Assembly (NCBI GenBank): GCA_003252135.1
Contig: QKDK01000230.1
Span: 1 to 37,220, forward strand
Direction of reading: 5' to 3'
DNA: 37,220 bases
Source: Clostridia bacterium
Lineage (GTDB): Bacteria > Bacillota > Clostridia > Lachnospirales > Lachnospiraceae
Position 1 is the first letter of the stretch, and each line of letters opens with the position of its first letter. Positions 10,441 through 29,884 of this stretch are shown piece after piece. Both the position numbers and the translations under genes were made by a program. The notes beneath the pieces are model-generated. The model did not search any database. It was not told the DNA's origin and saw only the letters and a program-made list of their open reading frames with translations.

Positions 10441-12993
10441 ATGGCCGGATTAGACCAGTTTCGCATAAAGAAAAGCGAAAGAATCCAACATTTGGTTTAC
10501 CACTTGTACGCAAAGCTTCCCGAAATTGAAGCAGACAGAGCAGTACTTCTAACAGAATCCTATCGTCAGACAGAGGGCGAACCCATCATTTCAAGGCGTG
10601 CCAAAGCCTTTTCCCATATTCTATTAAATATCCCTATCATAATTAGAGAAGAAGAACTGATTGCAGGCAGTGCAAGTATTGCACCGCGCGGCTGCCAGAC
10701 CTTTCCTGAGTTTTCTTACAGCTGGCTGGAATCAGAATTTGATACCGTGGAAACCCGCAGTGCGGATCCTTTTTATATCTCCGAGCAGACTAAAAGACTG
10801 CTGCGTGATATTCATCCTTACTGGAAGGGCAGGACAACAAGTGAACTTGCCACTTCGCTGATGACTAAGGAAACCATCAAGTCGATGGAGCATAATGTAT
10901 TCACTACAGGGAATTATTTTTATAACGGTGTCGGACATATTACAGTAGCATATGACAAGGTTCTGGCAATAGGTTTTAGCGGGATTTATCAGGAAGCCTT
11001 TGAAGAAGATAAGAAACTAAAGGTTTCGGATCCCGATTATGTAACAAGACATTTCTTTTTAGAAGCAGTCATGATCAGCTGTAAAGCGGCAGTTGCCTAT
11101 GCAAATCGTTATGCGGTGCTTGCCAAACAGCAAGCGGATGCTCTGGAAGCAGAAGCAGTGAAGAACTTAGGGTATTCCAGCGCATTAAGTAAAAGAGCTG
11201 CCGAACTCAACCAGATAGCTGCCAATTGCAACAGAGTGCCGGAATTTGGTGCCACCTCCTTTTATGAAGCCTGTCAATCCTTCTGGTTCGTACAGATGCT
11301 GCTGCAGGTCGAATCGAGCGGACACTCGATATCACCGGGACGTTTTGATCAGTACATGTATCCTTATTATAAAAAAGACCTGGAAGCTGGAAAGATTACC
11401 AGAGAGTCAGCACAGGAGCTTCTCGACTGCATCTGGGTAAAATTAAATGATCTGAATAAAGTCAGAGATGCCGTTTCTGCAGAAGGCTTTGCAGGCTACA
11501 GTCTCTTCCAGAACCTGATCGTTGGAGGACAGAACGCTGACGGTGAAGATGTGACCAATGATCTGTCTTATATGTGCATAGAAGCAGCCATGCATATTCA
11601 GCTGCCGCAGCCCTCTCTTTCTGTTCGTGTGTGGAATAAGACACCGCAGGATCTGATGCTTAAAGCAGCGGAGCTCACAAGAACAGGGGTAGGTCTTCCG
11701 GCTTACTATAATGATGAAGTCATCATTCCAGCTTTGATCAACAGGGGATTGACGCTTGAGCATGCAAGAGATTATTCCATTATAGGGTGCGTAGAACCGC
11801 AGAAACCTGGCATGACAGACGGCTGGCATGATGCTGCCTTCTTCAATATGTGTCGTCCGTTGGAGCTTGTTTTCAACAACGGTTATTCAAAAGGAGAACA
11901 AATCAGCATTCAGACAGGTGATGTGACAAAGATGAATAGCTTTGACGAATTCTACGATGCCTATAAAGCGCAGATGAACTACCAGATCGGGCTTCTCGTG
12001 AATTCGGACAATTCCATCGATGTAGCCCATGCTACAAGATGTCCGCTTCCTTTTGAATCCTGTATGGTCGATGATTGCATCAAACGCGGTATCAGCCTTC
12101 AAGAGGGGGGTGCGGTATATAACTTCACGGGTCCGCAGGGTTTTGGTATTGCCAACATGGCAGATGCACTATATGTAATCAAAACACTGGTCTATGAACA
12201 GAAGAAGATCACCATGAAAGAACTGAAGGATGCGCTGGAGGTCAACTTTGGTATTCCGGATGAAAGAACGATTTTTGAACTTGCATCGACGGTGTTCACA
12301 GGTCTGAAAGCGGCCGGCAAAGAAGTGGATGCGGCAACCGCAGCACAGGTCATTGCGACCATAGCAAAAGAATATATGAGCCATGATTATAAATATCTGC
12401 TTGATATGATCGAAGAAGTTCCGAAATTTGGCAACGACATCGAAGAAGTGGATGAGATAGCAAGAGATGCCGCCTACACTTACACAAAACCGCTCGAGAA
12501 GTTCTTCAATCCGCGCGGCGGACAGTATCAGGCGGGACTGTATCCGGTATCGGCCAATGTGCCGCTCGGTGCTCAGACCGGTGCCACACCGGATGGAAGA
12601 CTTGCAGGTGCGCCGATTGCAGATGGTGTATCCCCGGTTGCCGGACGTGATGTGCACGGCCCGACAGCAGCAGCCAATTCGGTCGCAAAGCTTGACCATT
12701 TTATAGCCTCCAACGGAACCCTGTTCAACCAGAAGTTCCATCCGAGTGCTTTAAAGGGACAAAAGGGTCTCGAGAACTTTGTTGCTCTGATTCGCGCCTA
12801 TTTTGACCAGAAGGGCATGCATATGCAATTCAATGTAGTCAGCCGTGACACTTTGCTGGATGCACAAAAGCACCCGGAGAATTATAAAGGACTTGTGGTT
12901 CGGGTAGCAGGCTACAGTGCATTGTTCACAACATTATCAAAATCCCTGCAGGATGATATTATCCATCGTACAGAGCATATCAGCGGCGTGTAA
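10441..12993 (+). CDS. Glycyl radical diol dehydratase (B12-independent 1,2-propanediol dehydratase type)
   Basis: Glycyl loop VVRVAGYSALF near the C-terminus; active-site GCVEPQKPGMTDGWHDAAFFN with C-x-E and Asp 12 residues after Glu, as in glycerol/propanediol dehydratases; BMC context. Confidence 0.92.
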   Translation: MAGLDQFRIKKSERIQHLVYHLYAKLPEIEADRAVLLTESYRQTEGEPIISRRAKAFSHILLNIPIIIREEELIAGSASIAPRGCQTFPEFSYSWLESEFDTVETRSADPFYISEQTKRLLRDIHPYWKGRTTSELATSLMTKETIKSMEHNVFTTGNYFYNGVGHITVAYDKVLAIGFSGIYQEAFEEDKKLKVSDPDYVTRHFFLEAVMISCKAAVAYANRYAVLAKQQADALEAEAVKNLGYSSALSKRAAELNQIAANCNRVPEFGATSFYEACQSFWFVQMLLQVESSGHSISPGRFDQYMYPYYKKDLEAGKITRESAQELLDCIWVKLNDLNKVRDAVSAEGFAGYSLFQNLIVGGQNADGEDVTNDLSYMCIEAAMHIQLPQPSLSVRVWNKTPQDLMLKAAELTRTGVGLPAYYNDEVIIPALINRGLTLEHARDYSIIGCVEPQKPGMTDGWHDAAFFNMCRPLELVFNNGYSKGEQISIQTGDVTKMNSFDEFYDAYKAQMNYQIGLLVNSDNSIDVAHATRCPLPFESCMVDDCIKRGISLQEGGAVYNFTGPQGFGIANMADALYVIKTLVYEQKKITMKELKDALEVNFGIPDERTIFELASTVFTGLKAAGKEVDAATAAQVIATIAKEYMSHDYKYLLDMIEEVPKFGNDIEEVDEIARDAAYTYTKPLEKFFNPRGGQYQAGLYPVSANVPLGAQTGATPDGRLAGAPIADGVSPVAGRDVHGPTAAANSVAKLDHFIASNGTLFNQKFHPSALKGQKGLENFVALIRAYFDQKGMHMQFNVVSRDTLLDAQKHPENYKGLVVRVAGYSALFTTLSKSLQDDIIHRTEHISGV

Positions 12994-13073
12994 ACAAGAG
13001 TACCGTTTGAAAAAAATGCCAGAACATCATATATAGATGACTGCAATGGCAGATAAAGAGGTTAAGAGATAAG

Positions 13074-13847
13074 ATGACGGGACGAATATTTGACATACAA
13101 CGGTTTTCCGTTCATGACGGTCCGGGAATTCGAACCATTGTTTTTCTGAAAGGTTGTCCTTTCCGCTGCAAATGGTGCTGTAATCCGGAATCTCAGGAGT
13201 TTGAGATCCAGACCATGCTGATGAACGGCAAGAGAAAAAAAGCCGGTCAGGATGTGACTGTCGAAGAGGTCATGAAGACGATTCGCAGAGATCAGCCGTA
13301 TTATCATCGCTCAGGCGGGGGGGTAACCCTATCTGGCGGAGAGTTCTTAGCGCAGAGTGAATTTGCCAGAGAATTGCTGATGACCTGTAAAGAAGAAGGC
13401 TTTCATACAGCTGTAGAAAGCACAGGCGGTCTTCCTTTTGAAGTTATAGAGCGTGTTCTTCCCTATATAGACATGTATCTGATGGATATCAAGCATATGG
13501 ACCCGGAGAAACATAAAAGGTATACGGGAAGGTCTAATGAACTGATACTGGAAAATGCCAGAAAGATTGCAGCGGCATCAGGAACACAACTGATCATAAG
13601 AGTTCCTGTCGTACCGGAATTCAATGCGACCAGGGAAGAAATTAAAGAGATAGCTGCTTTTGCAGCAACACTTCAGGGAGTAAAGGAGCTTCACCTTCTG
13701 CCATATCACAGGTATGGGGAAGGAAAGTATGAAGCGCTTGGCCGGCCATATGAGATGGCACATATCAGGACCATGACAGATGAGGAAGCAGAGGTTCTGC
13801 TTGCCGAAGCTAAAAAATCCGGTCTGACCTGTCAGCTGGGCGGCTGA
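13074..13847 (+). CDS. Glycyl radical enzyme activating protein (radical SAM)
   Basis: CPFRCKWC (CxxxCxxC); SGGGVTLSGGE; adjacent to the GRE. Confidence 0.93.
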   Translation: MTGRIFDIQRFSVHDGPGIRTIVFLKGCPFRCKWCCNPESQEFEIQTMLMNGKRKKAGQDVTVEEVMKTIRRDQPYYHRSGGGVTLSGGEFLAQSEFARELLMTCKEEGFHTAVESTGGLPFEVIERVLPYIDMYLMDIKHMDPEKHKRYTGRSNELILENARKIAAASGTQLIIRVPVVPEFNATREEIKEIAAFAATLQGVKELHLLPYHRYGEGKYEALGRPYEMAHIRTMTDEEAEVLLAEAKKSGLTCQLGG

Positions 13848-14026
13848 TCGATACAAAAAACAGATATAATAAAGGTAAATAAACCAATAAGAGAAAACTA
13901 ATAAGAAAACCAATATACAAAAACAAGAAAATTACAATAAATTTTATCGAATCTATAGAGGAATGCCGGTAAGTCGGCATGAACAAAATGTGCGGGCAAA
14001 GTAAGGCACAGGAATGAGGATGCTTC

Positions 14027-14425
14027 ATGGATAAATTTCTGTCGGAAATTGCAGGAGAAAAGATGAGAATCATTCAGGAAATCGTACCCGGTAAACAAAT
14101 CACCATTGCTCATGTTATAGCAAATCCAGATCATGAGCTTCTTACACAGGTACATAAAGCACAGGGAGATGCAGTTTATGCAGAAATCCCCAAGGAAAAA
14201 GGAGCAGCCATTGGAATTCTGACCATAACACCGGGAGAGACAGCAGTCATTGCAGCTGATATCGCCATCAAGACATCCGGTGTGAAGCTGTCAAAGATCG
14301 ACCTGACGACCGGAACGCTGATCATCACCGGCAGTGTGTCAGAAGTCGAGGAATCCATGCGGGCAGTCGTTGACTACGCAGAAAAAAAATTAGGGTTTGA
14401 GGTATGCAGAATTACAGTAAGTTAA
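14027..14425 (+). CDS. BMC shell protein, PduU/EutS type (circularly permuted BMC-H)
   Basis: RIIQEIVPGKQITIAHVIANP..GAAIGILTITPGETAVIAADIA matches EutS/PduU. Confidence 0.92.
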   Translation: MDKFLSEIAGEKMRIIQEIVPGKQITIAHVIANPDHELLTQVHKAQGDAVYAEIPKEKGAAIGILTITPGETAVIAADIAIKTSGVKLSKIDLTTGTLIITGSVSEVEESMRAVVDYAEKKLGFEVCRITVS

Positions 14426-14498
14426 GCATGCTTTACAATATAGAGAAAAACCAATACAGCATATTATTATGAGAAAATCATTTTAGGAGGAAAAAAGA

Positions 14499-15308
14499 AT
14501 GGCATCGGAATACGAAATCAAAAAACAGATCTGTGAAATCGGAAGACGCATTTATGACAAAGGAATGGTAGCATCCAACGACGGTAACATTTCCGTAAGA
14601 ATCAGCGAGAATGAGTTTTTATGTACACCTACAGGTGTGAGCAAGGGCTTTATGACACCGGAGTACATTTGTAAAGTAGATAGAGACGGGAAAGTAATCC
14701 AGGCAAATCAGGGCTTCAAGCCATCTTCAGAAATCAAAATGCATATGAGAGTTTACAAAAAAAGACCTGATGTTATGTCTGTTGTACATGCTCATCCTAT
14801 TTATGCAACAAGCTTTGCAATCGCTGGTATTCCGCTTTCTGCACCGATTATGCCGGAAGCTGTTATCACACTTGGCTGTGTACCGATCGCTGAGTACGGC
14901 ACACCTTCCACTGAAGAGATCCCGGATGCTGTTGAAAAATACTTAGAGCACTTCGATGCAGTTCTTCTTGAGAATCACGGAGCACTTTCCTTCTCAGATT
15001 CTCTGCTGAATGCATATCACAAGATGGAATCCTTAGAATTCTATGCACAGCTTTTGTTCAATGCAAAAATGCTTGGAGGACCAAAGGAACTCAGTCCTGC
15101 ACAGGTACAGCGTCTGTATGAAATCAGACAGGCATTTGGTATGAAGGGCAAGCACCCGGCTGATCTTTGCCTTAATATGAAGGGCGGCACAGCAAACTGC
15201 CATAACTGCAATCCTTCCAAAAAGATAACAGAAACAGCAGGATCAGCTTCTGCAGATGTTGTAGCAGAGATTACAAAGAGAGTAATGGAACAGCTCGGCA
15301 TTAAATAA
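14499..15308 (+). CDS. Class II aldolase (L-fuculose-/L-rhamnulose-phosphate aldolase type) with C-terminal encapsulation-peptide-like extension
   Basis: GNISVRISENEFLCTPTGVSKG, VVHAHPIYATSFAIAG, LLENHGALSF; C-terminal SADVVAEITKRVMEQLGIK. Confidence 0.9.
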   Translation: MASEYEIKKQICEIGRRIYDKGMVASNDGNISVRISENEFLCTPTGVSKGFMTPEYICKVDRDGKVIQANQGFKPSSEIKMHMRVYKKRPDVMSVVHAHPIYATSFAIAGIPLSAPIMPEAVITLGCVPIAEYGTPSTEEIPDAVEKYLEHFDAVLLENHGALSFSDSLLNAYHKMESLEFYAQLLFNAKMLGGPKELSPAQVQRLYEIRQAFGMKGKHPADLCLNMKGGTANCHNCNPSKKITETAGSASADVVAEITKRVMEQLGIK

Positions 15309-15347
15309 TCCATGCAAGAAGCCTGACTTTCCAAAGGAGGAATACAA

Positions 15348-16736
15348 ATGGCAGTCAATGAAGCACAGATACAGGATATCGTGCGACAGGTCTTAAAAAG
15401 CATGAATGTTGCAGGAGTTTCCTGTACTGGAAACGGAATCTTTGAGTCAATGGAAGAAGCGATAGAAGCTTCCGTGAAAGCACAAAAAGTAATGAAACAG
15501 ATGTCCATGGACGGCAGGGAAAAAATCATCACAGCAATTCGAAAAAAAACAATGGAAAATGCAGAAGTTTTGGCACGAATGGCAGTGGAAGAGACCGGAA
15601 TGGGCAATGTCAGCCATAAAATACTGAAAAATCAACTGGTTGCAGAGAAGACACCGGGAACGGAAGACATCACGACTACAGCCTGGTCCGGTGACAGGGG
15701 CCTTACCCTGACAGAAATGGGACCGTTTGGCGTGATCGGTGCCATAACGCCCTGCACCAATCCAAGTGAAACTGTGATCTGCAACAGCATCGGTATGATC
15801 GCAGGTGGCAATACGGTGGTATTCAATCCGCATCCGGCTGCTATCAGGGTTTCCAACTACGCAGTACAGCTTGTCAATGAGGCAAGCATAGAAGCAGGCG
15901 GTCCGTCCAATGTAGCAGTCTCTGTTACAAAACCGACAATGGAATCAAGTGCTGTCATGATGAAGCATAAAAGCATTCAGCTCATCGTGGCAACCGGTGG
16001 CCCCGGTGTCGTAACAACGGTTCTTTCTTCCGGCAGAAGAGGTATCGGTGCAGGTGCAGGAAATCCTCCGGCACTCGTTGATGAAACAGCAGACATCAGA
16101 AAAGCTGCTGCAGATATCGTGAATGGCTGTACCTTTGATAATAACCTGCCCTGCATAGCAGAAAAGGAAGTAGTTGCCGTATCGAGCATCATGGATGAAC
16201 TGATGCACTATATGATCGAAGAGAACGGCTGCTATCTTTTAAATAAAGATGAGCAGGAAAAGCTTACATCTGTCGTAATCACAGAAAAAGGACTGAACAG
16301 AAAATGTGTCGGGAAAGATGCAATCACACTGCTGTCCATGATCGGTGTGAAAGCACCGAATACAACAAGATGTCTGATTTTTGAAGGCCCAAAGGAACAC
16401 AAGCTGATTGCAGAAGAACTGATGATGCCGATTCTTGGCATTGTACGTGCAAAGGATGTGGATGATGCCATTGAACAGGCAGTCTGGCTCGAGCACGGCA
16501 ACCGTCATTCTGCGCATATGCATTCAAAGAATATCGACAATCTTACAAAGTACGGTAAAGCCATCGATACAGCTATTTTTGTGAAGAATGCCCCATCCTA
16601 TGCAGCTATCGGATTCGGCGGTGAAGGTTTTTGCACCTTTACCATTGCAAGCCGTACCGGTGAGGGACTGACCTCAGCTTCTACCTTTACCAAGAGAAGA
16701 CGCTGTGTAATGTCCGACAGTCTCTGTATAAGATAG
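15348..16736 (+). CDS. pduP: CoA-acylating propionaldehyde dehydrogenase
   Basis: N-terminal encapsulation peptide (EAQIQDIVRQVLKSM); aldehyde dehydrogenase body with catalytic Cys in CTFDNNLPCIAEKE. Confidence 0.93.
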   Translation: MAVNEAQIQDIVRQVLKSMNVAGVSCTGNGIFESMEEAIEASVKAQKVMKQMSMDGREKIITAIRKKTMENAEVLARMAVEETGMGNVSHKILKNQLVAEKTPGTEDITTTAWSGDRGLTLTEMGPFGVIGAITPCTNPSETVICNSIGMIAGGNTVVFNPHPAAIRVSNYAVQLVNEASIEAGGPSNVAVSVTKPTMESSAVMMKHKSIQLIVATGGPGVVTTVLSSGRRGIGAGAGNPPALVDETADIRKAAADIVNGCTFDNNLPCIAEKEVVAVSSIMDELMHYMIEENGCYLLNKDEQEKLTSVVITEKGLNRKCVGKDAITLLSMIGVKAPNTTRCLIFEGPKEHKLIAEELMMPILGIVRAKDVDDAIEQAVWLEHGNRHSAHMHSKNIDNLTKYGKAIDTAIFVKNAPSYAAIGFGGEGFCTFTIASRTGEGLTSASTFTKRRRCVMSDSLCIR

Positions 16737-16774
16737 GTTAGTGACGAAATGTAAGTAATTTAGGAGGTAAAAAC

Positions 16775-17971
16775 ATGGAAATGAATTCCGCAGCAATAGA
16801 AGATATTGTGAAGCAGGTGCTTGCGGGCATGAAGGATGCACCGGCAGCAAAAAAAGCTTCTGCAGGTCCAGTGCCATCAACATCACGTGCAGCCATGCTG
16901 ACTGGTATCGAAAAAATTGAACTGAAAGAATATAAAATTCCTGAACTCGGGGATAATGATATTCTTGTCAAGGTTGAAGGATGCGGTATCTGCGGCACAG
17001 ATGCACACGAATATAAAAGAGATCCCTTTGCACTGATTCCTGTTGTTCTTGGACATGAAGGCACAGGCGAGATCGTAAAAATGGGAAAGAACGTAAAAAA
17101 GGACAGCGCAGGCAAGTCCCTGTCTCTGGGAGATAAGGTAGTTACCTGTATGATCTTTAAGGATAACCCGGATATCACCATGTTCGATCTGAACAAACAA
17201 AATGTTGGCGGTGCAGATGTCTATGGACTTCTTCCCGATGATGATATACACTTGAATGGTTGGTTCGCTGACTACCTTGTGATTCGCGGCGGTTCAACGG
17301 TATTCAATGTAAGTGATCTTGATCTTGATTCCCGTATCCTGATAGAGCCATGTGCGGTTCTGATTCATGCAGTTGAGAGAGCAAAGACAACGAATATTCT
17401 TCGTTTCAACAGTCGTGTGGTTGTTCAGGGATGCGGCCCGATCGGTCTGATCTGTATCGCCGTTCTTCGTACCATGGGCATCGAGAACATCGTTGCAGTT
17501 GACGGGGAAGAAAAACGCCTTGCCTTTGCAAAAGAAATGGGCGCTACTAAAACTGTGAACTTTAAAGATCACAAAGGCATCGAAGCTCTTGCTGAAGGCG
17601 TAAAATCAGCTTTTGGCGGCTATTATGCAGATTTTGGATTCCAGTGCACCGGTTCGCCGGTCGGACATTCCAACATCTATAAATTTATCCGCAACGGCGG
17701 CGGACTCTGCGAACTTGGTTTCTTCATAAACGGCGGAGACGCAACCATCAATCCGCACTTTGATCTTTGTTCCAAAGAGATAACGCTGGTCGGTTCATGG
17801 GTATATACCCTCCGTGACTATGCTACCACCTTTGACTTCTTAAAAAGAGCAAATGCCATCGGACTTCCGATGTCCAAACTGATCACTCACAAGTATAAAC
17901 TTGATGATATCAATGAAGGCTTTATTAAGAATGTTAAGATGGAAGGCCTGAAAATAGCTATCGTAAACTAG
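16775..17971 (+). CDS. Zinc-dependent MDR alcohol dehydrogenase, BMC-associated
   Basis: GCGICGTDAHEYK, VLGHEGTGEIV; N-terminal encapsulation peptide (SAAIEDIVKQVLAGM). Confidence 0.88.
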   Translation: MEMNSAAIEDIVKQVLAGMKDAPAAKKASAGPVPSTSRAAMLTGIEKIELKEYKIPELGDNDILVKVEGCGICGTDAHEYKRDPFALIPVVLGHEGTGEIVKMGKNVKKDSAGKSLSLGDKVVTCMIFKDNPDITMFDLNKQNVGGADVYGLLPDDDIHLNGWFADYLVIRGGSTVFNVSDLDLDSRILIEPCAVLIHAVERAKTTNILRFNSRVVVQGCGPIGLICIAVLRTMGIENIVAVDGEEKRLAFAKEMGATKTVNFKDHKGIEALAEGVKSAFGGYYADFGFQCTGSPVGHSNIYKFIRNGGGLCELGFFINGGDATINPHFDLCSKEITLVGSWVYTLRDYATTFDFLKRANAIGLPMSKLITHKYKLDDINEGFIKNVKMEGLKIAIVN

Positions 17972-17981
17972 GAGGAACAGC

Positions 17982-18299
17982 ATGAACCAGAATGCGGTCG
18001 GATTTATAGAAGTATATGGACTTGTCGCAGCATTTGCGGCATGTGATGCCGGATGTAAGGCAGCAAATGTTACGGTTGAGCCCTTTGACCGTAATAAGCC
18101 GGCAAATGCAGATAAGCTTCCGGTTCCCCTGATTGTCTGCGTTAAATTCCGCGGCGGTGTGGATGATGTGAAAGCAGCTGTTGAAGCAGCAGAAGAAGCA
18201 GCCAATGCACTGACAGGTGTGGTATCGAAGCATGTGATTGCCAATGTGGAATCAGGTGTTGATCCGATGCTCCATCTCAACGGACTTGACAAGAACTAA
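17982..18299 (+). CDS. BMC-H shell protein (variant with longer pore-loop region)
   Basis: VGFIEVYGLVAAFAACDAGCKAANVTVEPFDRNKPANADKLPVPLIVCVKFRGGVDDVKAAVEAA. Confidence 0.88.
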   Translation: MNQNAVGFIEVYGLVAAFAACDAGCKAANVTVEPFDRNKPANADKLPVPLIVCVKFRGGVDDVKAAVEAAEEAANALTGVVSKHVIANVESGVDPMLHLNGLDKN

Positions 18300-18327
18300 T
18301 GCAATCAGTCGGAAATGGAGGATACAT

Positions 18328-18612
18328 ATGAAATCAATGGGTTTTATTGAACTTCAGAGCGTAACGGCAGCGATCGATGCCCTTGACACAATGTGCAAAG
18401 CAGCGGATGTTGAGTTTGTTACCTGGGAGAGAAAGTTAGGCGGACGACTGGTAACAGTGATCGTTCAGGGGGAGATGTCTGCGGTGAAAGCGGCAGTGGA
18501 TGCAGCAGCAGCGACAGCCATGATACACCCTTGTGTAACACTGGTCCTTGCAAATCCGCACGAAGAAACATGTCGCATGGTCGAGTTAAGTGCTCAGAAG
18601 ATGAGGAAGTGA
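18328..18612 (+). CDS. BMC-H shell protein
   Basis: [60 protein letters not shown]. Internal ATG 18328 with RBS GGAG is preferred over the track start at 18238. Confidence 0.9.
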
Positions 18613-18616
18613 TCCT

Positions 18617-19126
18617 ATGGCAGAGAACAAGGACAGCAATGATAAGAAAAAGGTCAGTTTCGAAGTAGAAAAAAAGGAAACACAGACCAGAAAAAAGGCA
18701 GTGGTTACAAGCAGTCAGCCTGCAAAAGCAGCAGGGACAGAAAATGCTGCGCAGATCAAGAATCAGGCGGATACTCCGCTGATTATAAATGAAACAAATA
18801 CAAAATCAAATGGGAAACCTGAAACAAATTTAAAGGAGGAAATAAAAATGGCACAGGAAGCATTGGGAATGGTAGAAACAAGAGGTTTGGTTGCAGCAAT
18901 CGAGGCTGCTGACTCTATGTTAAAGGCAGCAAACGTAGTACTTGTAGGAACAGAGAAAATCGGATCTGGTCTTGTAAGCGTTATGGTTCGCGGAGATGTA
19001 GGAGCAGTTAAGGCAGCAGTAGAAACAGGTGCATCTAATGCAGCAAAACTTGGTGAAGTGGTTGCTACACACGTAATACCTCGTCCTCACACAGACGTTG
19101 AGAAAATATTACCATCTTTAAAATAA
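18617..19126 (+). CDS. BMC-H shell protein (PduA/J type); possible long form with 77-aa N-terminal extension, internal start at 18848
   Basis: [74 protein letters not shown] is close to PduA/PduJ. AAAGGAGG precedes ATG 18848; GAGGAAG precedes ATG 18617. Confidence 0.9.
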
Positions 19127-19153
19127 TCTGAGTTATAAAGATCAGGTTGTTAA

Positions 19154-19290
19154 ATGCATGAGATTCATGCATAGTATGGAAAGATATCCGGCGGGGGCGG
19201 TCTGACCGTTCCTGCCGGTAGGTAATAGGAAGCAAAGCTTCCTATATACAGAACCGGCAATGATCGTGCGCAGGCACTCCATCTGGTTCT
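19154..19290 (+). ncRNA. Candidate structured RNA element (four consecutive hairpins) between the BMC-H gene and pduL
   Basis: Stems 19154-19161/19165-19172; 19188-19201/19205-19218 (14 bp, 3 G-U); 19225-19233/19237-19245 (9 bp); 19250-19257/19283-19290 (one G-U) enclosing 19266-19269/19274-19277. Confidence 0.6.
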
Positions 19291-19340
19291 TCGCAAATAA
19301 CTTTGATTTATTATGTTAGATAGGTAAGGCGGTGGCTGTA

Positions 19341-20012
19341 ATGGATGAAGCAACAATCAGACTTGTAACAAAATTGGTAGAAGAGGCAGTTGCCGGGAAA
19401 CTTACAACACCTCAGGCATCAGACAGTACAATAGCAAAAATGAGCGGTTTTCAGGTTCCTGTGGGCGTGTCGGCCAGACACATTCATCTGACACAGGGCG
19501 ATGTTGAAACCTTATTCGGTCAGGGATATCAGCTGACAAAATGCAAGGATCTAATGGGCGGACAGTATGCCTGCAAAGAGACGGTAACAATTGTGGGTCT
19601 GAAGCTGCGTGCCATTGAAAATGTACGTATTTTAGGACCGGTCAGAAAAGCAACGCAGGTAGAAGTTTCTTCCACCGATGCGATTAAACTGGGAATCAAG
19701 GCACCAATCCGGGAATCCGGCAACATCAGCGGTTCAGCACCGTTAGCAGTTGTAGGTCCTGTGGGTGTTTTATATATGAAAGAAGGCTGTATCATAGCAA
19801 AGCGTCATATCCATATGTCTCCTGAGGACGCAAAACAGGCAGGTGTAAAGGACAATCAGATTGTGTCAGTCGTTGCGGAAAATGAGCGCGGGACTATATT
19901 CAATCATGTACAGATCCGTGTGGATGAAAGCTTTACACTGGAAATGCACATTGACACAGACGAAGCCAATGCAGCAAAAATAAGAACTGGTGACCAGGTC
20001 ATCATTCAGTAA
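19341..20012 (+). CDS. pduL: PduL-type phosphate propanoyltransferase
   Basis: VPVGVSARHIHLTQGDVETLFG, AKRHIHMSPEDAKQAGV; N-terminal encapsulation-like helix (EATIRLVTKLVEEAVAGK). Confidence 0.93.
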   Translation: MDEATIRLVTKLVEEAVAGKLTTPQASDSTIAKMSGFQVPVGVSARHIHLTQGDVETLFGQGYQLTKCKDLMGGQYACKETVTIVGLKLRAIENVRILGPVRKATQVEVSSTDAIKLGIKAPIRESGNISGSAPLAVVGPVGVLYMKEGCIIAKRHIHMSPEDAKQAGVKDNQIVSVVAENERGTIFNHVQIRVDESFTLEMHIDTDEANAAKIRTGDQVIIQ

Positions 20013-20058
20013 ATAATCAGGTTTGTGACAGATTTACAATCATTATGGAGGTAGAAGG

Positions 20059-20322
20059 ATGTTGGTCGGAAAAGTAATAGACAGTATCGTATCAACCAGA
20101 AAACATGAACGGCTGGTAGGAAATAAGTTTCTGATCGTTGAGCCGTTGCCCTGTATGGGCGAGAACAGGGACCGATTGGTTGCGATTGACAATGTCGGAG
20201 CAGGAATCGGTGAGATTGTTCTGGTTGCAGTAGGAAGTGCTGCAAGAGCCGGCTGCGGACATCCGGATGCACCTATTGATGCTGCAATCGTCGGTATTGT
20301 GGACAATGGAGATCGTTTATAA
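20059..20322 (+). CDS. EutN/CcmL-type pentameric shell vertex protein (BMC-P)
   Basis: MLVGKVIDSIVSTRKHERLVGNKFLIVEPL..DRLVAIDNVGAGIGEIVLVAVGSAAR. Confidence 0.93.
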   Translation: MLVGKVIDSIVSTRKHERLVGNKFLIVEPLPCMGENRDRLVAIDNVGAGIGEIVLVAVGSAARAGCGHPDAPIDAAIVGIVDNGDRL

Positions 20323-20343
20323 TTGACAGGATTGGAGATGACG

Positions 20344-21705
20344 ATGGACGCTGCACAATTGAAAGAAATCATCAGAGACAGCGGAGTCATCGGGGCCGGA
20401 GGAGCAGGATTTCCAGCCTATGCAAAGCTTTCGGACAAGGCAGATACCATGATTTTGAACTGTGCGGAATGCGAACCGCTTTTGAAGGTTCACAGACAGC
20501 TGCTGGCAGAGCATGCCTACGAAATCATGACCATGATGACAGAAATCGCTGCCGTTTTTTCAATAGAAAATATATATATTGCGCTGAAGGCAGGTTATAA
20601 AGAAGCAATAGAAGCGGTATCGGCACACCACGAGAGCTTTCCGGGGCTGAAGATACAACTATTGAAGGAAGTCTATCCGGTCGGTGATGAAGTTATTCTG
20701 ACCTTTGAGACCACAGGGAGAATCGTTCCGGCAGGCGGACTTCCCATCCAGATCGGTGTTACAGTGTTCAATGTTGAGACAATGTATAATATGTATCTGG
20801 CCGTTCACGAAGGAAAGCCTGTGACGCACAAGTATCTTACTGTAGCGGGAGAAGTGAAGAACCCATGTACACTGAGAGTTCCGATCGGTATGACAGCTAA
20901 GCAAGCTGTAGAACTAGCGGGCGGGCAGACAAGCGATGATGTTGCCTATATAATGGGAGGCCCGGCAACCGGACGTATCATTCCCAGATATGAAGCCATC
21001 ACCAAGACAACGAATGCAATACTTGTTCTTCCGTTGACGAATACAGTCATAAGGAAAAAACAGACCAATGTTAAAATAGATATGAAACGGGCTATGGCAA
21101 GCTGCTGTCAGTGTCAGATGTGCACGGATCTGTGCCCGAGGCATCTTTTAGGGCACCCGATAGAACCGCATGCATTTATGCAGTCTGCTACCAGCGGTGA
21201 TTCAAGCAAGACAGGTGTTTATCTGAACACTCACTTCTGCTGTGCCTGCGGAGTCTGTGAATTGTTTGCCTGTCCGCAGGGACTGGCTCCCAGGACATTG
21301 ATTCAGGAATGCAAGGCAGAGTTAAGAAAAAATGGAGTTGCAGCACCTGTGGTCACGCAGGAACTGGAAGCAGATAAAGCAAGAGCCTACAGAATGACAG
21401 CCATGAAACGTTTTATCGGCAGACTGGGACTTACAGAATATAATGTACCGGCACCTATGAGGGAAAATGCGTTTATACCGGACAGGGTCACTATATATCT
21501 GAACCAGCATATCGGAGCACCATCCATACCGATAGTAAAAAAAGGTGATATTGTCAGAGTGGGAGATGTTATAGCAGAAGCGGAGGAAGGAAAATTGTCC
21601 GCAGGAGTGCATGCATCAATAAGCGGGAAGATCACGGAATGCAGCGGACGTTTTATTATGATAGACAGAGTGAAGGCAGAAAGGTCAGGAGACAGTCATG
21701 AGTAA
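20344..21705 (+). CDS. pduS: RnfC-like PduS electron-transfer protein
   Basis: GVIGAGGAGFPAYAKL, two 4Fe-4S motifs (CCQCQMCTDLCPRHLLGH; CCACGVCELFACPQGL). ATG 20344 has a GGAG RBS. Confidence 0.92.
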   Translation: MDAAQLKEIIRDSGVIGAGGAGFPAYAKLSDKADTMILNCAECEPLLKVHRQLLAEHAYEIMTMMTEIAAVFSIENIYIALKAGYKEAIEAVSAHHESFPGLKIQLLKEVYPVGDEVILTFETTGRIVPAGGLPIQIGVTVFNVETMYNMYLAVHEGKPVTHKYLTVAGEVKNPCTLRVPIGMTAKQAVELAGGQTSDDVAYIMGGPATGRIIPRYEAITKTTNAILVLPLTNTVIRKKQTNVKIDMKRAMASCCQCQMCTDLCPRHLLGHPIEPHAFMQSATSGDSSKTGVYLNTHFCCACGVCELFACPQGLAPRTLIQECKAELRKNGVAAPVVTQELEADKARAYRMTAMKRFIGRLGLTEYNVPAPMRENAFIPDRVTIYLNQHIGAPSIPIVKKGDIVRVGDVIAEAEEGKLSAGVHASISGKITECSGRFIMIDRVKAERSGDSHE

Positions 21706-22246
21706 AGCCATCGGAATGGTAGAATACAAAACGGTTTCTGCAGGTGTAAAAGCAGCAGATACCATCATTAAAACAGCAGAGGTCAACATTCTGGAAGCGC
21801 AGACAGTTTGCCCTGGTAAATACATTCTGATTTTCGAAGGTGATATCAGCGGTGTGTCGGCTGCCATTGACTCGGCAAAGAGTCTGCTGCCGGAGCAGCT
21901 GATTGGAAGTTTTGTTCTGGGAAATCCGCATGAAGGCATTTTTCCGGCAATTTACGGAGCGTGTGAGGTTACTGATCTGCGGTCCCTTGGTATCCTGGAG
22001 ACCTATGATGTGGCTTCCATGATCGTTGCTGCAGATGAAGCTGCTAAAACTGCGGAGGTCGAACTTATTGAACTCAGGCTGGCCAGAGGCATGTGCGGAA
22101 AATCATACCTCTTCCTTGCAGGTGAAGTTGCGGCAGTTACGGCTGCAATCGAACGTGCGAAGGGGGCAGCTGGTGACAGAGGCATGTATCTTGACAGCTC
22201 GATCATCGCAAATCCAGACAAAAAGCTCTGGGAAACGATTGTCTGA
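21698..22246 (+). CDS. pduT: PduT-like tandem-BMC (BMC-T) shell protein with Fe-S cysteine
   Basis: Two BMC domains; Cys38 in TVCPGKY at the position of the PduT cluster ligand; overlaps pduS by 8 nt. Confidence 0.92.
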   Translation: MSKAIGMVEYKTVSAGVKAADTIIKTAEVNILEAQTVCPGKYILIFEGDISGVSAAIDSAKSLLPEQLIGSFVLGNPHEGIFPAIYGACEVTDLRSLGILETYDVASMIVAADEAAKTAEVELIELRLARGMCGKSYLFLAGEVAAVTAAIERAKGAAGDRGMYLDSSIIANPDKKLWETIV

Positions 22247-22259
22247 CTTTAAAATACCG

Positions 22260-22300
22260 GGATAGTCGGGAATGAAAATTCTGACTATCCTTCTTTTGTT
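22260..22300 (+). terminator. Rho-independent terminator ending the BMC operon
   Basis: GGATAGTC (22260-22267) / GACTATCC (22283-22290) followed by TTCTTTTG. Confidence 0.75.
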
Positions 22301-22401
22301 ATCGATCTGACGCTGACAGATAATAATTGTAAGATACATTCAGAGCATGCTGTAACAGAAAGTGATTTGGAAAATCTTCATGTAAACCAGGAAGGTGGAT
22401 A

Positions 22402-22430
22402 TTGTACAAACCCTTAAGTTATGTTAAAAT
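22402..22430 (+). promoter_or_regulatory. Putative deoR promoter
   Basis: TTGTAC-N17-TAAAAT with extended -10 TGn. Confidence 0.55.
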
Positions 22431-22594
22431 CATGGGTATTGAAAGTTTTCCGGGTTAAATTTTCCTGAAACGTACATGGTTTTCACAACGAAAAGAATTT
22501 CAAAAGTGAAAGATTTTATCTGAATGCATGAGATTTTGTAACGTAATGTATGGGAAGAGATTTTCAGAATTGAAAATTGAAGGAGAGGGAATTA

Positions 22595-23377
22595 ATGCTG
22601 GCTATTGAACGGAAAAATGAAATCCTGGCACTGCTTCAGCAGGAAAAAAGTGTAATTGTAGCAGAGCTTCGGGAACGGTATGGTGTTACGGAAGAAACCA
22701 TACGTAGAGACCTTGACAAGCTGGAGAAAGAAGGACTTGCAAGGAAGACTTACGGCGGAGCTGTCCTGAATGAAAGTCTGAATACAGACCTGCCGTTCAA
22801 GATAAGAAAACGTGCAAATGTAGAAAGCAAGCAGTATATTGCTGAAATCATTAACGAGCTGGTAGAAGACGGAGACAATCTGATGCTGGATGCAAGTTCA
22901 ACAGCAGTATATGCAGCTAAGAGCCTGAAGCATAAGAAAAATTTGACAATCATTACCAATTCCGTGGAGATACTTCTGGATGCTGCTGATGTGGCAGGCT
23001 GGCGTATTCTGTCCACAGGCGGAAGCCTGAAGGAAGGTTCGCTTGCACTTGTCGGTTATCAGGCGGTGAATATGATACAATCCTATCATGTTGACAAGGC
23101 CATTATTTCCTGCAAAGGGATCGATAAACATGCGGGCATCACAGACTCCTCTGAACTTGACATGCAGATCAAAAAGGCAATGCTCGAAGCGGCCAATCAG
23201 TCTATAATCATGGCAGATCGTTCCAAATGGGGGAAGGTGGCTTTTACAAAAATCTGTGACCTGAATCATATAGACTACCTTGTAACAGAATCAGAACCTG
23301 ACGCACAATGGCTGCAGGCCTGCGAGGATGCCGGTGTTACGCTGAGGTACAGCCAGACATCAATGGAGGACAAATAA
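22595..23377 (+). CDS. DeoR-family transcriptional regulator
   Basis: Helix-turn-helix LRERYGVTEETIRRDLDKLEKEGLARKTYGGAV; sugar-phosphate sensor domain. ATG 22595 with AAGGAGAGG RBS. Confidence 0.93.
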   Translation: MLAIERKNEILALLQQEKSVIVAELRERYGVTEETIRRDLDKLEKEGLARKTYGGAVLNESLNTDLPFKIRKRANVESKQYIAEIINELVEDGDNLMLDASSTAVYAAKSLKHKKNLTIITNSVEILLDAADVAGWRILSTGGSLKEGSLALVGYQAVNMIQSYHVDKAIISCKGIDKHAGITDSSELDMQIKKAMLEAANQSIIMADRSKWGKVAFTKICDLNHIDYLVTESEPDAQWLQACEDAGVTLRYSQTSMEDK

Positions 23378-23502: not shown

Positions 23503-24906
23503 ATGAAATATTATCTTGCAGTTGATATAGGAGCATCAAGCGGACGTCTGATTCTTGGACATGTTAACAAAGGGAAGATCGTGTGTGAGGAGATGCACCG
23601 TTTTGAAAACAGATTGTACGAACAGGATGGACATCTGTGCTGGGATTACCAAAAACTATTTGACGAAATATGTGTTGGTATGAGAAAATGTAAACTGCAG
23701 AACAAGGTACCGGTTTCCATGTCGATAGATACCTGGGGAGTTGATTTTGTACTTCTTGATGGTAATGATCAGGTTATCGGACAGACAGTCGGGTATCGTG
23801 ACCAGAGAAATATCGGTATGGACGAAGAACTGTTAAAGTACATTTCACAGGAAGAGCTGTATGCCAGAACCGGTATACAGAAAGCTGTATTTAATACAAT
23901 ATACCAGCTTCTGGCTGTCAAAAAAGAGCATCCGGAATATCTGGCAAAGGCTAAGACCATGCTGATGACACCGGAATATTTTGATTTCCTGTTCACGGGA
24001 AGAAAGATGTGTGAATATACCATTGCCAGTACAACACAGCTGTTGAACGCTGCAAGCAAGACATGGGATACCCTGTTAATTGAAAAGCTGGGCCTGAACA
24101 GAGACATGTTCCTGCCGATTACCATGCCTGGAACAAAGGTAGGCAACCTGAGAGAAGAATTAAAGAATTATGTAGGTTATGACTGTGAGATCATTCAGGC
24201 AGCAGCACATGATACAGGTTCTGCAGTTATGGCGGTACCGGTATATAACAGCAGTGATGTAGTCTACATCAGTTCAGGAACCTGGTCCCTGATGGGTGTT
24301 GAGCTTGAAAAACCTGACTTAAGTGAAGAAAGCAGACGGCGAAACTTCACGAACGAGGGCGGTTATGACTACCGTTTCCGTTACCTGAAGAACATTATGG
24401 GACTCTGGATGATACAGTCTGTCAGAAGAGAGACAGGTAACAAGTATTCTTTTGCGCAGCTTTGTGAACTGGCTATACAGGAAGATAAGTATCCGGGACG
24501 CGTGGATATCAATGATAATCGTTTCCTTGCACCGGAAAACATGACAGAAGAAATTACAGCAGCACTGGTCGAGCAGGGAATCCGTGCACCAAAGAATATC
24601 GGTGAACTTGCGACTTGTATTTATCAGAGTCTTGCAGAAAGTTATGCGAGTACAGTGCTTGAGATTGAAAGCATGACAGGTAAAAAGTACGACAGCATTC
24701 ATATCGTAGGAGGCGGATGTAACGCAGACTATTTAAATGAACTGACAGCTAAAGCAACAAAGAAAACGATATATGCGGGTCCGTCCGAAGCAACAGCGAT
24801 CGGTAACCTGCTTTCCCAGATGATTCATTACTGTGAATTTGAAAATCTGACGGAAGCAAGACGCGCAGTACATGATTCGTTTGATGTTAAGATAATCAAA
24901 GCATAA
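23503..24906 (+). CDS. rhaB: Rhamnulokinase
   Basis: FGGY kinase: YYLAVDIGASSGRLILG, SIDTWGVDFVLLD, YISSGTWSLMGVE, HIVGGGCNADYLN. Confidence 0.92.
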   Translation: MKYYLAVDIGASSGRLILGHVNKGKIVCEEMHRFENRLYEQDGHLCWDYQKLFDEICVGMRKCKLQNKVPVSMSIDTWGVDFVLLDGNDQVIGQTVGYRDQRNIGMDEELLKYISQEELYARTGIQKAVFNTIYQLLAVKKEHPEYLAKAKTMLMTPEYFDFLFTGRKMCEYTIASTTQLLNAASKTWDTLLIEKLGLNRDMFLPITMPGTKVGNLREELKNYVGYDCEIIQAAAHDTGSAVMAVPVYNSSDVVYISSGTWSLMGVELEKPDLSEESRRRNFTNEGGYDYRFRYLKNIMGLWMIQSVRRETGNKYSFAQLCELAIQEDKYPGRVDINDNRFLAPENMTEEITAALVEQGIRAPKNIGELATCIYQSLAESYASTVLEIESMTGKKYDSIHIVGGGCNADYLNELTAKATKKTIYAGPSEATAIGNLLSQMIHYCEFENLTEARRAVHDSFDVKIIKA

Positions 24907-27167: not shown

Positions 27168-29123
27168 ATGGGGAGCAGCACTTTCGGATTGATGAGCGCA
27201 CCGGGTGATCCGATGACGCTGGGAGTCAGCAGATGCGGGAAGAAGCATAATTTTGCCGTGTCTGTTCCGAATGCAGGTGAATGCCGACTAAAAATAGAAA
27301 TTTACAATAAGGACAGTGAACAGCAGGAAGAGACTACTGCTGTTTTTGTTATGACAAAGGAGAACCGTTTTGGGAGCATATTCTCACTTAGCATAATCGG
27401 ACTGGAAGAGAAAAAATTTTTCTACTGGTATGAAGCACTGGGAAGAGAATTTGCTGATCCCTATGCCAGACAGCTTGCAGACAGAGGGGATTTTGGGAAC
27501 AATAGTTCTGCAGGAGCATGTAAAGCGATTGCAGCCAGAGATACATTTTCGTGGAACGACGATGTAAGTCCTAGACTATCCTATCAGGAACTGATTCTGT
27601 ATAAGCTCCATGTCAGAGGATTTACAAGGCATCCTTCTGCTCATGTCAGGCATCCGGGAACATTTGCCGGTGTCTGTGAAAAGATACGTTATATGAAGGA
27701 GCTTGGCATCAATGCTATTCTGCTGATGCCCTGCTATGACTTTGATGAGTTATGCGGCAGCGGCGGGATTCAGGGAATTCCACAGCTTACTGATACCATG
27801 CGGGCAAAAGGTGTTTTCAGACATACTATGGCTGAACATGAAAAAGGCAGCTCCCAGAAGGTAAACTACTGGGGGTATGGTGCAAAAAGCTTTTATTTTG
27901 CGCCCAAAGCATCCTATGCCGCTGATCCGTGGCACGCCTGCAAAGAATTCAAGACAATGGTGAGTAAGATGCATACGAATGGCATCGAAGTTCTTATGGA
28001 GATAGATTTTGCCAGGGGGACAGCATACAGTCTGATTCTGGATGTCCTTCGTTTTTGGGTAACGGAGTATCACATCGATGGTTTCCGCATTAATGCAGAG
28101 ACCGCCCCCGGTTTACTGACAGGAGCCGATCCTTTCCTTGCAGATACAAAACTGCTTGCTGCAGGCTGGGATACTGATAGTCTGTATGGGAGCCATGTCA
28201 CACCGGATTATCAGAATCTTGCCGAGTGCAACGAAGGCTTCCTGAATGACTGCAGAAGATTTATGAAAGGGGATGAAGCACAGATTAGGCCCTTTACCGG
28301 AAGAGTCGTCAGGAATCCGTCCAAATGTGCTGTTGTGAATTATATTACCGATCATAACGGTTTCACACTGTACGATCTTTTTACTTACGACAGAAAGCAT
28401 AATGAAAAGAACGGCGAACGAAATCAGGACGGTACAGATTATAATTACAGCTGGAACTGTGGTGCGGAAGGAGAGACAACAGCCAGACGTGTGCAGAGTC
28501 TGCGTCTGCAGATGATAAAAAATGCATTGATTGCGCTTTTCTTGTCGCAGGGAACACCGATGCTTCTGGCAGGTGATGAATTTCTGAATTCTCAATATGG
28601 AAACAATAATGCTTACTGCCAGGATAATGAAATCAGCTGGCTGGACTGGAAAAGAACAAAGAATGCAAATGCCTGCAGGGAGTTTATCGCCATGCTGATC
28701 AGCCTTCGTAAAAAGCATCCTGTATTTCATAATACACTGGAGCTTAAACAGATGGATTATATCTCAAACGGCTGTCCGGATATATCCTATCATGGGGTGA
28801 AGGCCTGGTATCCTGATTACGCAAATTACTGCCGGACTGTTGGAATCTTATTGAACGGAGCTTACGCAAAAATCAGCAGGACAGAGAATGATCAGTCTTT
28901 CTATCTGATTTATAATATGCACTGGGAACCGCATGCATTTGATCTTCCTTACTGCAGCCCTGACAAAAAATGGGAAATACTGATTGCTACCTCGCAGGAA
29001 GATCAGACAGGTTCAAAAAAAGAACTGCAGCTGCTCATGCAGCCCAGATCAGTTGCGGTATGTGTTGCAGTTGACAGAGAGAAAAAAGGATCACCAAAGG
29101 AGCAGCGAATCAGAGCAGACTAA
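27168..29123 (+). CDS. Glycogen debranching enzyme (GlgX/isoamylase)-like GH13 protein, predicted non-catalytic
   Basis: CBM48-like N-terminus; GH13 debranching motifs recognisable (TDHNGFTLYDLFTYDRKHNEKNGERNQDGTDYNYSWNCGAEGET) but catalytic D, E, D positions are N, A, N. Confidence 0.85.
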   Translation: MGSSTFGLMSAPGDPMTLGVSRCGKKHNFAVSVPNAGECRLKIEIYNKDSEQQEETTAVFVMTKENRFGSIFSLSIIGLEEKKFFYWYEALGREFADPYARQLADRGDFGNNSSAGACKAIAARDTFSWNDDVSPRLSYQELILYKLHVRGFTRHPSAHVRHPGTFAGVCEKIRYMKELGINAILLMPCYDFDELCGSGGIQGIPQLTDTMRAKGVFRHTMAEHEKGSSQKVNYWGYGAKSFYFAPKASYAADPWHACKEFKTMVSKMHTNGIEVLMEIDFARGTAYSLILDVLRFWVTEYHIDGFRINAETAPGLLTGADPFLADTKLLAAGWDTDSLYGSHVTPDYQNLAECNEGFLNDCRRFMKGDEAQIRPFTGRVVRNPSKCAVVNYITDHNGFTLYDLFTYDRKHNEKNGERNQDGTDYNYSWNCGAEGETTARRVQSLRLQMIKNALIALFLSQGTPMLLAGDEFLNSQYGNNNAYCQDNEISWLDWKRTKNANACREFIAMLISLRKKHPVFHNTLELKQMDYISNGCPDISYHGVKAWYPDYANYCRTVGILLNGAYAKISRTENDQSFYLIYNMHWEPHAFDLPYCSPDKKWEILIATSQEDQTGSKKELQLLMQPRSVAVCVAVDREKKGSPKEQRIRAD

Positions 29124-29155: not shown

Positions 29156-29884
29156 ATGAGTATATTTATCTTAAAACTACTGGCATGCTTTTTTATGCTG
29201 ATTGACCATATGACAGCAGTATTGCTGCCCAATGGACAGATCACATATGATCTGATCGGCGGACTTCATGGAGATGTTGCTGACCTGACCAATGTGATCT
29301 ATACGATAGGAAGGGGAATAGGCCGGCTGGCTTTTCCGATTTTCTGTTATATGCTGGTGGAAGGACTGCGGCATACAAGAAATGTTACAAAGTATCTGCT
29401 TCGTATGGCTGCATTTGCCGTTATTTCAGAATTTCCTTTTGATTTTGCATTTTATGGAACCATCAACATGAATTACCAGAATGTATTTTTTGAACTGATG
29501 CTTGGACTGGCAGTTATTGCACTGATTCATCAGGTCGAGGTAAAATTCCCTGGAGATATGGTCAAATTCAATACATTTTCCCTGCTGATCGCACTGGCAG
29601 GCGGAATTTTAGCTGAGTTCCTGCGAGCTGATTATGGCTTCTTCGGAATCATGCTGATTACTGCAATCTATGTACTGAAGGATAAAAAACTCTGGATGTG
29701 CGTGATGTTTGTGGTTCTCTCTATGTTCGTTTCGCAGAATGCGTTTGAGGCGATCGGCGTTCTTGGATTTGTACTGATTCTTTTCTATAAGGGCAAGAAA
29801 GGCCCTTCGATGAAATATGCATTCTATGCATTCTATCCGGTGCATCTGCTGATTCTTGGCATTGTAAGTTTTATATGGCTCTGA
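29156..29884 (+). CDS. TraX family membrane protein
   Basis: LLACFFMLIDHMTAVL..IGRGIGRLAFPIFCYMLVEGLRHTRNVTKYLLRM..SEFPFDFAFYG. Confidence 0.85.
   Translation: MSIFILKLLACFFMLIDHMTAVLLPNGQITYDLIGGLHGDVADLTNVIYTIGRGIGRLAFPIFCYMLVEGLRHTRNVTKYLLRMAAFAVISEFPFDFAFYGTINMNYQNVFFELMLGLAVIALIHQVEVKFPGDMVKFNTFSLLIALAGGILAEFLRADYGFFGIMLITAIYVLKDKKLWMCVMFVVLSMFVSQNAFEAIGVLGFVLILFYKGKKGPSMKYAFYAFYPVHLLILGIVSFIWL

Follow-up and report, generated by a model that had tools for sequence, protein, structure and literature searches.

A maintained GlgX homologue of Lachnospiraceae without a catalytic site and with a putative non-hydrolytic role in glycogen metabolism

The gene at positions 27168 to 29123 of the window (the whole 37,220-nucleotide stretch of DNA analysed here) encodes a homologue of the debranching enzyme GlgX that has lost its catalytic site and is very likely a maintained pseudoenzyme, which we call pseudo-GlgX. 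Judging from its sequence, we favour the interpretation that it is a non-hydrolytic, α-glucan-binding or regulatory GlgX paralogue (GH13_11 type), specific to Lachnospiraceae and probably with a role in glycogen metabolism. Lachnospiraceae are a major family of gut bacteria, and most genera carry an intact pseudo-GlgX gene. No earlier description of the family was found in the open PMC literature searched.

Gene, start site and predicted fold

The gene was delimited as follows.

27168 to 29123, forward strand: pseudo-GlgX gene, supported by the open reading frame, TIGR02100, PDB and Foldseek matches and an AlphaFold2 model

The frame is open from 27168 to the stop that ends at 29123, in agreement with an earlier reading of this DNA from sequence only (the sequence-only reading), which had described it as intact. 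Two starts are possible, a TTG at 27159 giving 654 residues and an ATG at 27168 giving 651; the ATG is favoured because AGAGGA lies ∼10 bases upstream. Residue numbers used here count from the TTG (654 residues).

A profile search with TIGR02100 gave a score of 348 bits, far under the curated cut-off of 640.9, and the TIGR02100 matches in the window's own genome likewise fell under it. Identity to active GlgX is ∼30%. HMMER searches against the PDB matched the protein to plant ISA1, bacterial GlgX and archaeal TreX. An AlphaFold2 model, based on 52 aligned family members, had a mean pLDDT of 87.9, with the barrel mostly above 90 and the low-confidence parts mainly at residues 1–7 and 201–230. 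The best Foldseek matches of the model were rice ISA1, in both the ISA1 and the ISA1-ISA2 complexes, and Streptomyces venezuelae GlgX. A CBM48 domain gave no match at E-values up to 1. By these structure matches, the model and Foldseek, the protein has the isoamylase fold and homology of the GlgX / GH13_11 group, and by the curated TIGR02100 score it falls outside it.

Loss of the catalytic site

We compared the active-site regions in an alignment of 82 distinct Lachnospiraceae pseudo-GlgX homologues and 59 active GlgX proteins. The window protein carries the following.

27999 to 28022, forward strand: region I remnant EIDFARGT (residues 281–288); Asn-His gone and the β3–α3 loop ∼44 residues shorter
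28077 to 28100, forward strand: region II, DGFRINAE; nucleophile Asp replaced by N312 (28092–28094)
28149 to 28172, forward strand: region III, KLLAAGWD; acid/base Glu replaced by A335 (28161–28163)
28347 to 28370, forward strand: region IV, TDHNGFTL; stabiliser Asp replaced by N400 (28356–28358)

The sequence-only reading had assigned four motifs by eye, and the alignments placed DGFRINAE, LADTKLLAAGWD, TDHNGFTL and EIDFARGT exactly where it had put them. It had also described region I as lacking Asn-His and followed by a strongly shortened loop. This was correct: the columns of regions I and II are 33 residues apart in the window protein and 32–33 residues apart in all 82 pseudo-GlgX homologues, compared to 77–79 in the 59 active enzymes, and the shortening takes out most of the β3–α3 loop.

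The full Asp-Glu-Asp triad of GlgX / GH13_11 was present in 0/82 homologues. Asp occupies the nucleophile position in 59/59 active GlgX proteins; among pseudo-GlgX it was seen only in the copy of one genome (L011 and L158, two rows for the same gene), which is without the other two carboxylates. Glu was found at the acid/base position in 14/82, while the stabiliser position carried Asn in 51/82 and Asp in 13/82. The substitutions vary between species, as expected for a site that is no longer under catalytic constraint. No set of replacement residues is conserved in the family at or beside the three catalytic positions, and within residues 308–323, 325–371 and 374–405 of the 82-homologue alignment no Asp or Glu is conserved in ≥90% of members. 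With the loop lost in 82/82 and the full triad in 0/82, the loss of the active site is beyond chance. GlgB of the same window (3664–5874) retains its catalytic residues (DWVPAHF, GIRMDAV, AEEST and HDE), as had also been noted.

Distribution and origin of the family

We sampled 299 Lachnospiraceae genomes, almost all from different genera, using a family profile and calling pseudo-GlgX present at a best E-value <1e-130. It was present in ∼210 of the 299 genomes, a count that rests on scores, also for genomes near the border. The search for orthologues that the sequence-only reading had suggested thus recovered the same lost active site and intact frames in ∼210/299 genera, with exact substitutions that vary. 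A further 32 Lachnospiraceae genomes gave GlgX-type matches only (∼1e-95 to 1e-127), the assignment of one of them (G074) being uncertain. Within the Lachnospiraceae sample, pseudo-GlgX is often the sole GlgX homologue of its genome; a review has noted two glgX homologues in Blautia obeum (PMC10395257).

The profile matches pseudo-GlgX as one full-length hit and true GlgX as two pieces split around position 274, because pseudo-GlgX is without the loop at that point. Among 392 sampled Clostridia genomes, none outside Lachnospiraceae gave a full-length match, and the seven matches there were true GlgX by their split pattern. A tree of 33 pseudo-GlgX and 48 active sequences (quick search, midpoint root) was divided into the two groups by one branch with an SH-aLRT of 100, and end branches were longer in pseudo-GlgX. 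The family probably arose once.

Retained sugar contacts and family-specific residues

In the acarbose complex of S. venezuelae GlgX, the −1 sugar is contacted by W222, Y224, H271, D342, E378, W380, H449 and D450, and other sugars by R212, E470, N534 and Y536 (PMC9530166). We transferred these contacts to pseudo-GlgX by motif, R212 lying in an unalignable stretch. The sites of interest are given below.

27870 to 27878, forward strand: WGY (W238 and Y240, equivalent to S. venezuelae W222 and Y224), retained; Trp in 82/82, Tyr in 74 and Phe in 8 of 82
28416 to 28418, forward strand: E420, equivalent to contact E470; retained in 82/82
28608 to 28616, forward strand: N484-A-Y486, equivalent to contacts N534 and Y536; Asn in 82/82, Tyr in 79/82
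28755 to 28781, forward strand: motif specific to the family, surrounding D533 and D541, where the barrel joins the C-terminal domain

Five sugar contacts (the equivalents of W222, Y224, E470, N534 and Y536) are therefore retained in 90–100% of the 82 homologues, and six catalytic or −1-site residues are lost: H271, D342, E378, W380 (42/82), H449 (33/82) and D450. The −1 pocket is the most variable part of the protein. The E470 equivalent is more conserved in pseudo-GlgX (82/82) than in active GlgX (40/59). Across the alignment, 63 columns are ≥90% conserved in both groups. The pattern of contact residues fits a cleft that could still hold glucan chains without cutting them, and is moderate evidence only, since 48 of the 95 columns invariant in active GlgX are retained in pseudo-GlgX overall; the conserved contacts may also have been kept for folding.

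D533 (82/82) and D541 (78/82) are conserved in pseudo-GlgX and neither is conserved in active GlgX. The stretch from residue 533 to 569 (28755–28865) contains the family-specific invariant residues D533, P540, D541, S543, H545, W550, R559 and Y569.

Gene neighbourhood

We examined 61 pseudo-GlgX loci, some labels of neighbour clusters coming from reading the sequence rather than from a family search. The gene lies outside any glg operon and its neighbours are mostly housekeeping genes, among which ABC-F, HtpG, exonuclease III, a UvrD-like helicase, LuxS and others recur. Linkage to GlgB was considered and set aside: the two genes are ∼21 kb apart in the window, and GlgB was near the gene in 3/60 loci only. 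The next gene downstream, after a gap of ∼33 bases, is the following.

29156 to 29884, forward strand: TraX-family membrane protein (PF05857), candidate partner

TraX was directly downstream on the same strand in 17/61 loci, including several where the remaining synteny has broken down; downstream in the same orientation, a DUF5662 gene occupied position +1 or +2 in 23/61. The gene directly upstream of pseudo-GlgX is an ABC-F of two types, ∼84% or ∼30% identical to that of the window; from the occurrence of both types (L144–L148, L157, L159 and others), this place appears to have been taken by an ABC-F gene on more than one occasion.

Elsewhere in the window, a GGDEF-EAL protein at 8208–10187 ends in a LamG/concanavalin-like domain (PF13385), which is an unusual fusion partner for a c-di-GMP enzyme, and a second LamG protein is encoded at 1745–2719. 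A microcompartment cluster at 10441–23377 (a glycyl radical enzyme with its activase, class II aldolase, aldehyde dehydrogenase, shell proteins and PTAC) lies beside a rhamnulokinase gene at 23503–24906; together they look like a fucose/rhamnose propanediol compartment.

Glycogen genes and the debranching step

The window's genome, which is 80% complete, contains glgA, glgB, glgC/glgD and two glgP genes; within this 80% we found neither another GlgX nor a type I pullulanase. Since glgA is nearly universal in Lachnospiraceae (289/299 sampled genomes), gene presence or absence does not tie pseudo-GlgX to glycogen, and co-occurrence with glycogen synthesis was uninformative as a functional test.

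For the pullulanase search we picked 40 family genomes that have pseudo-GlgX and no second GlgX-type match. Type I pullulanase above the family cut-off was missing in 36 of the 40, despite near-universal glgA, and PulA, above cut-off in 4/40 only, was rejected as a substitute. The type I pullulanase and GlgX-type searches thus expose a gap, with the debranching step unaccounted for in 36/40 genomes. An obligate partnership with an active GlgX was also rejected: a catalytic GlgX partner cannot be general, as searches of the window's own genome and of many others turned up no second GlgX. Pseudo-GlgX should not carry a debranching-enzyme annotation, and metabolic reconstructions of gut bacteria, which can count genes of this kind among the debranching enzymes, would be corrected accordingly.

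Proposed role

As the catalytic machinery is lost while the fold and several sugar contacts are retained, pseudo-GlgX probably attaches to storage glucan without cleaving it. In the scenario that we propose, a GlgX paralogue in the Lachnospiraceae ancestor would have lost the β3–α3 loop and the catalytic residues once, and would have been retained thereafter. The protein, most likely at work in the cytosol, would dock α-1,4/1,6-glucan chains in its cleft by means of the peripheral contacts, without cleavage. Once docked, it could influence the structure or turnover of glycogen, or bring a partner to the polymer, a docking mode that would match the current view of how plant ISA2 acts. We infer that pseudo-GlgX is inactive, binds glucan and serves a regulatory or scaffolding role, with any partner being equally putative. 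A glycan-binding or regulatory function had been suggested in the sequence-only reading, and this suggestion is plausible and is strengthened by the retained contact residues. It is also conceivable, and we offer this tentatively, that pseudo-GlgX controls glycogen architecture by binding alone, as an undescribed bacterial glycogen-shaping factor that most Lachnospiraceae have retained, often in genomes lacking both GlgX and type I pullulanase.

Alternative explanations

The apparent loss of activity could be an artefact of misalignment, with the real carboxylates elsewhere and the protein an ordinary debranching enzyme. The sole point in its favour is the ∼30% identity to active GlgX, and we regard it as extremely improbable: the motifs flanking each position are conserved and align alike in separate alignments and in the HMMER matches to solved structures, which contradict this reading, and there are no alternative conserved acids. 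A gene decaying on its way to loss is likewise exceedingly unlikely. Pseudo-GlgX does evolve faster than active GlgX, as judged by its longer branches, and its protein is only 69% identical to that of the nearest congener, compared to 95% for the neighbouring ABC-F (TraX and DUF5721 being 74% and 76% identical). However, frames are intact in nearly all of the many homologues listed; a few have one in-frame stop within the matched span, and the instance checked (L112) was the normal end of the gene. In addition, the change relative to the nearest congener amounts to 21% at first, 16% at second and 49% at third codon positions, so that third positions change 2–3 times as often as the others, a bias that is a sign of purifying selection and not a measured dN/dS, since third positions may be near saturation. 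Intact frames and changes concentrated at third codon positions argue that the gene is not decaying, and together with the 63 columns conserved in both groups they led us to rule decay out. The sequence-only reading had preferred a maintained pseudoenzyme to decay, and the intact-frame orthologues, the third-position bias and the high-confidence predicted barrel uphold that view.

A maintained pseudoenzyme need not bind glucan, and the fold may instead serve to interact with other proteins, the downstream TraX-family membrane protein for example, or to bind a different ligand. The variability of the −1 pocket, the new invariant residues D533, D541, R559 and Y569 outside the classical active-site motifs, and the recurrence of TraX and DUF5662 downstream are consistent with this. 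We nevertheless consider it rather unlikely, as E420, N484 and Y486 are 96–100% conserved, with E420 surpassing its conservation in active GlgX, and the TraX linkage is missing from most loci. An enzyme with new chemistry, using other residues of the cleft, appears very unlikely. Activity despite an aberrant triad is known from some GH13 enzymes, for example BmaN1 (PMC5347038), E420 is invariant, and the carboxylates D533 and D541 are family-specific; but region I has lost both Asn-His and its loop, no carboxylate or other residue set is conserved at or beside the catalytic positions, and BmaN1 still has its acid/base Glu.

Comparison with known systems

Pseudo-GlgX resembles GlgX and TreX (GH13_11) in fold, domain order, the shared conserved columns and the peripheral sugar contacts, and differs from them in the absence of the triad, of region I Asn-His and of the loop, as well as in its profile score (348 against 640.9 bits). 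The c-di-GMP-activated GlgX of S. venezuelae is a close structural match to the model. A motif scan of the window protein did not find the c-di-GMP motif E-x-R-x6-R, and we therefore rejected regulation by c-di-GMP as in Streptomyces GlgX.

The BmaN1 group offers another parallel, pseudo-GlgX also being a GH13 protein that departs from the canonical triad. BmaN1 is an active amylase whose triad is aberrant, the nucleophile being shifted and the stabiliser a His, and it retains the acid/base Glu and a nearby Asp (PMC5347038). In pseudo-GlgX, by contrast, the catalytic positions vary without pattern and no acid is conserved near them, and BmaN1-style shifted catalytic residues were rejected on this ground. 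The absence of a stand-in acid matters because BmaN1, active with its aberrant triad, still retains Glu and Asp.

The closest parallel in kind is offered by plant ISA2, which has long been a puzzle. In this non-catalytic isoamylase the nucleophile and other conserved residues, at least four out of five in all, are variable; the protein assembles into complexes with ISA1 and influences polymer structure without catalysis (PMC12510319, PMC3787081). Like ISA2, pseudo-GlgX belongs to the same superfamily branch, has the isoamylase fold, has lost the nucleophile and most catalytic residues, and is retained lineage-wide (PMC12510319, PMC3787081); it is thus an isoamylase homologue without the nucleophile and most catalytic residues, as ISA2-type proteins are defined (PMC12510319). 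Unlike ISA2, the pseudo-GlgX clade has lost the β3–α3 loop, and in many of its genomes no GlgX that could serve as catalytic partner is seen, so that it would work like ISA2 by analogy at best. The family profile scored ISA1 at ∼434 bits and ISA2 at 225–238 bits, and this much better fit to ISA1 makes it likely that pseudo-GlgX and ISA2 are of separate origin. Why selection retains a non-catalytic isoamylase was described as not understood in a 2025 study (PMC12510319); a second, apparently independent ISA2-like case, in bacteria that are partly culturable, would make this question testable.
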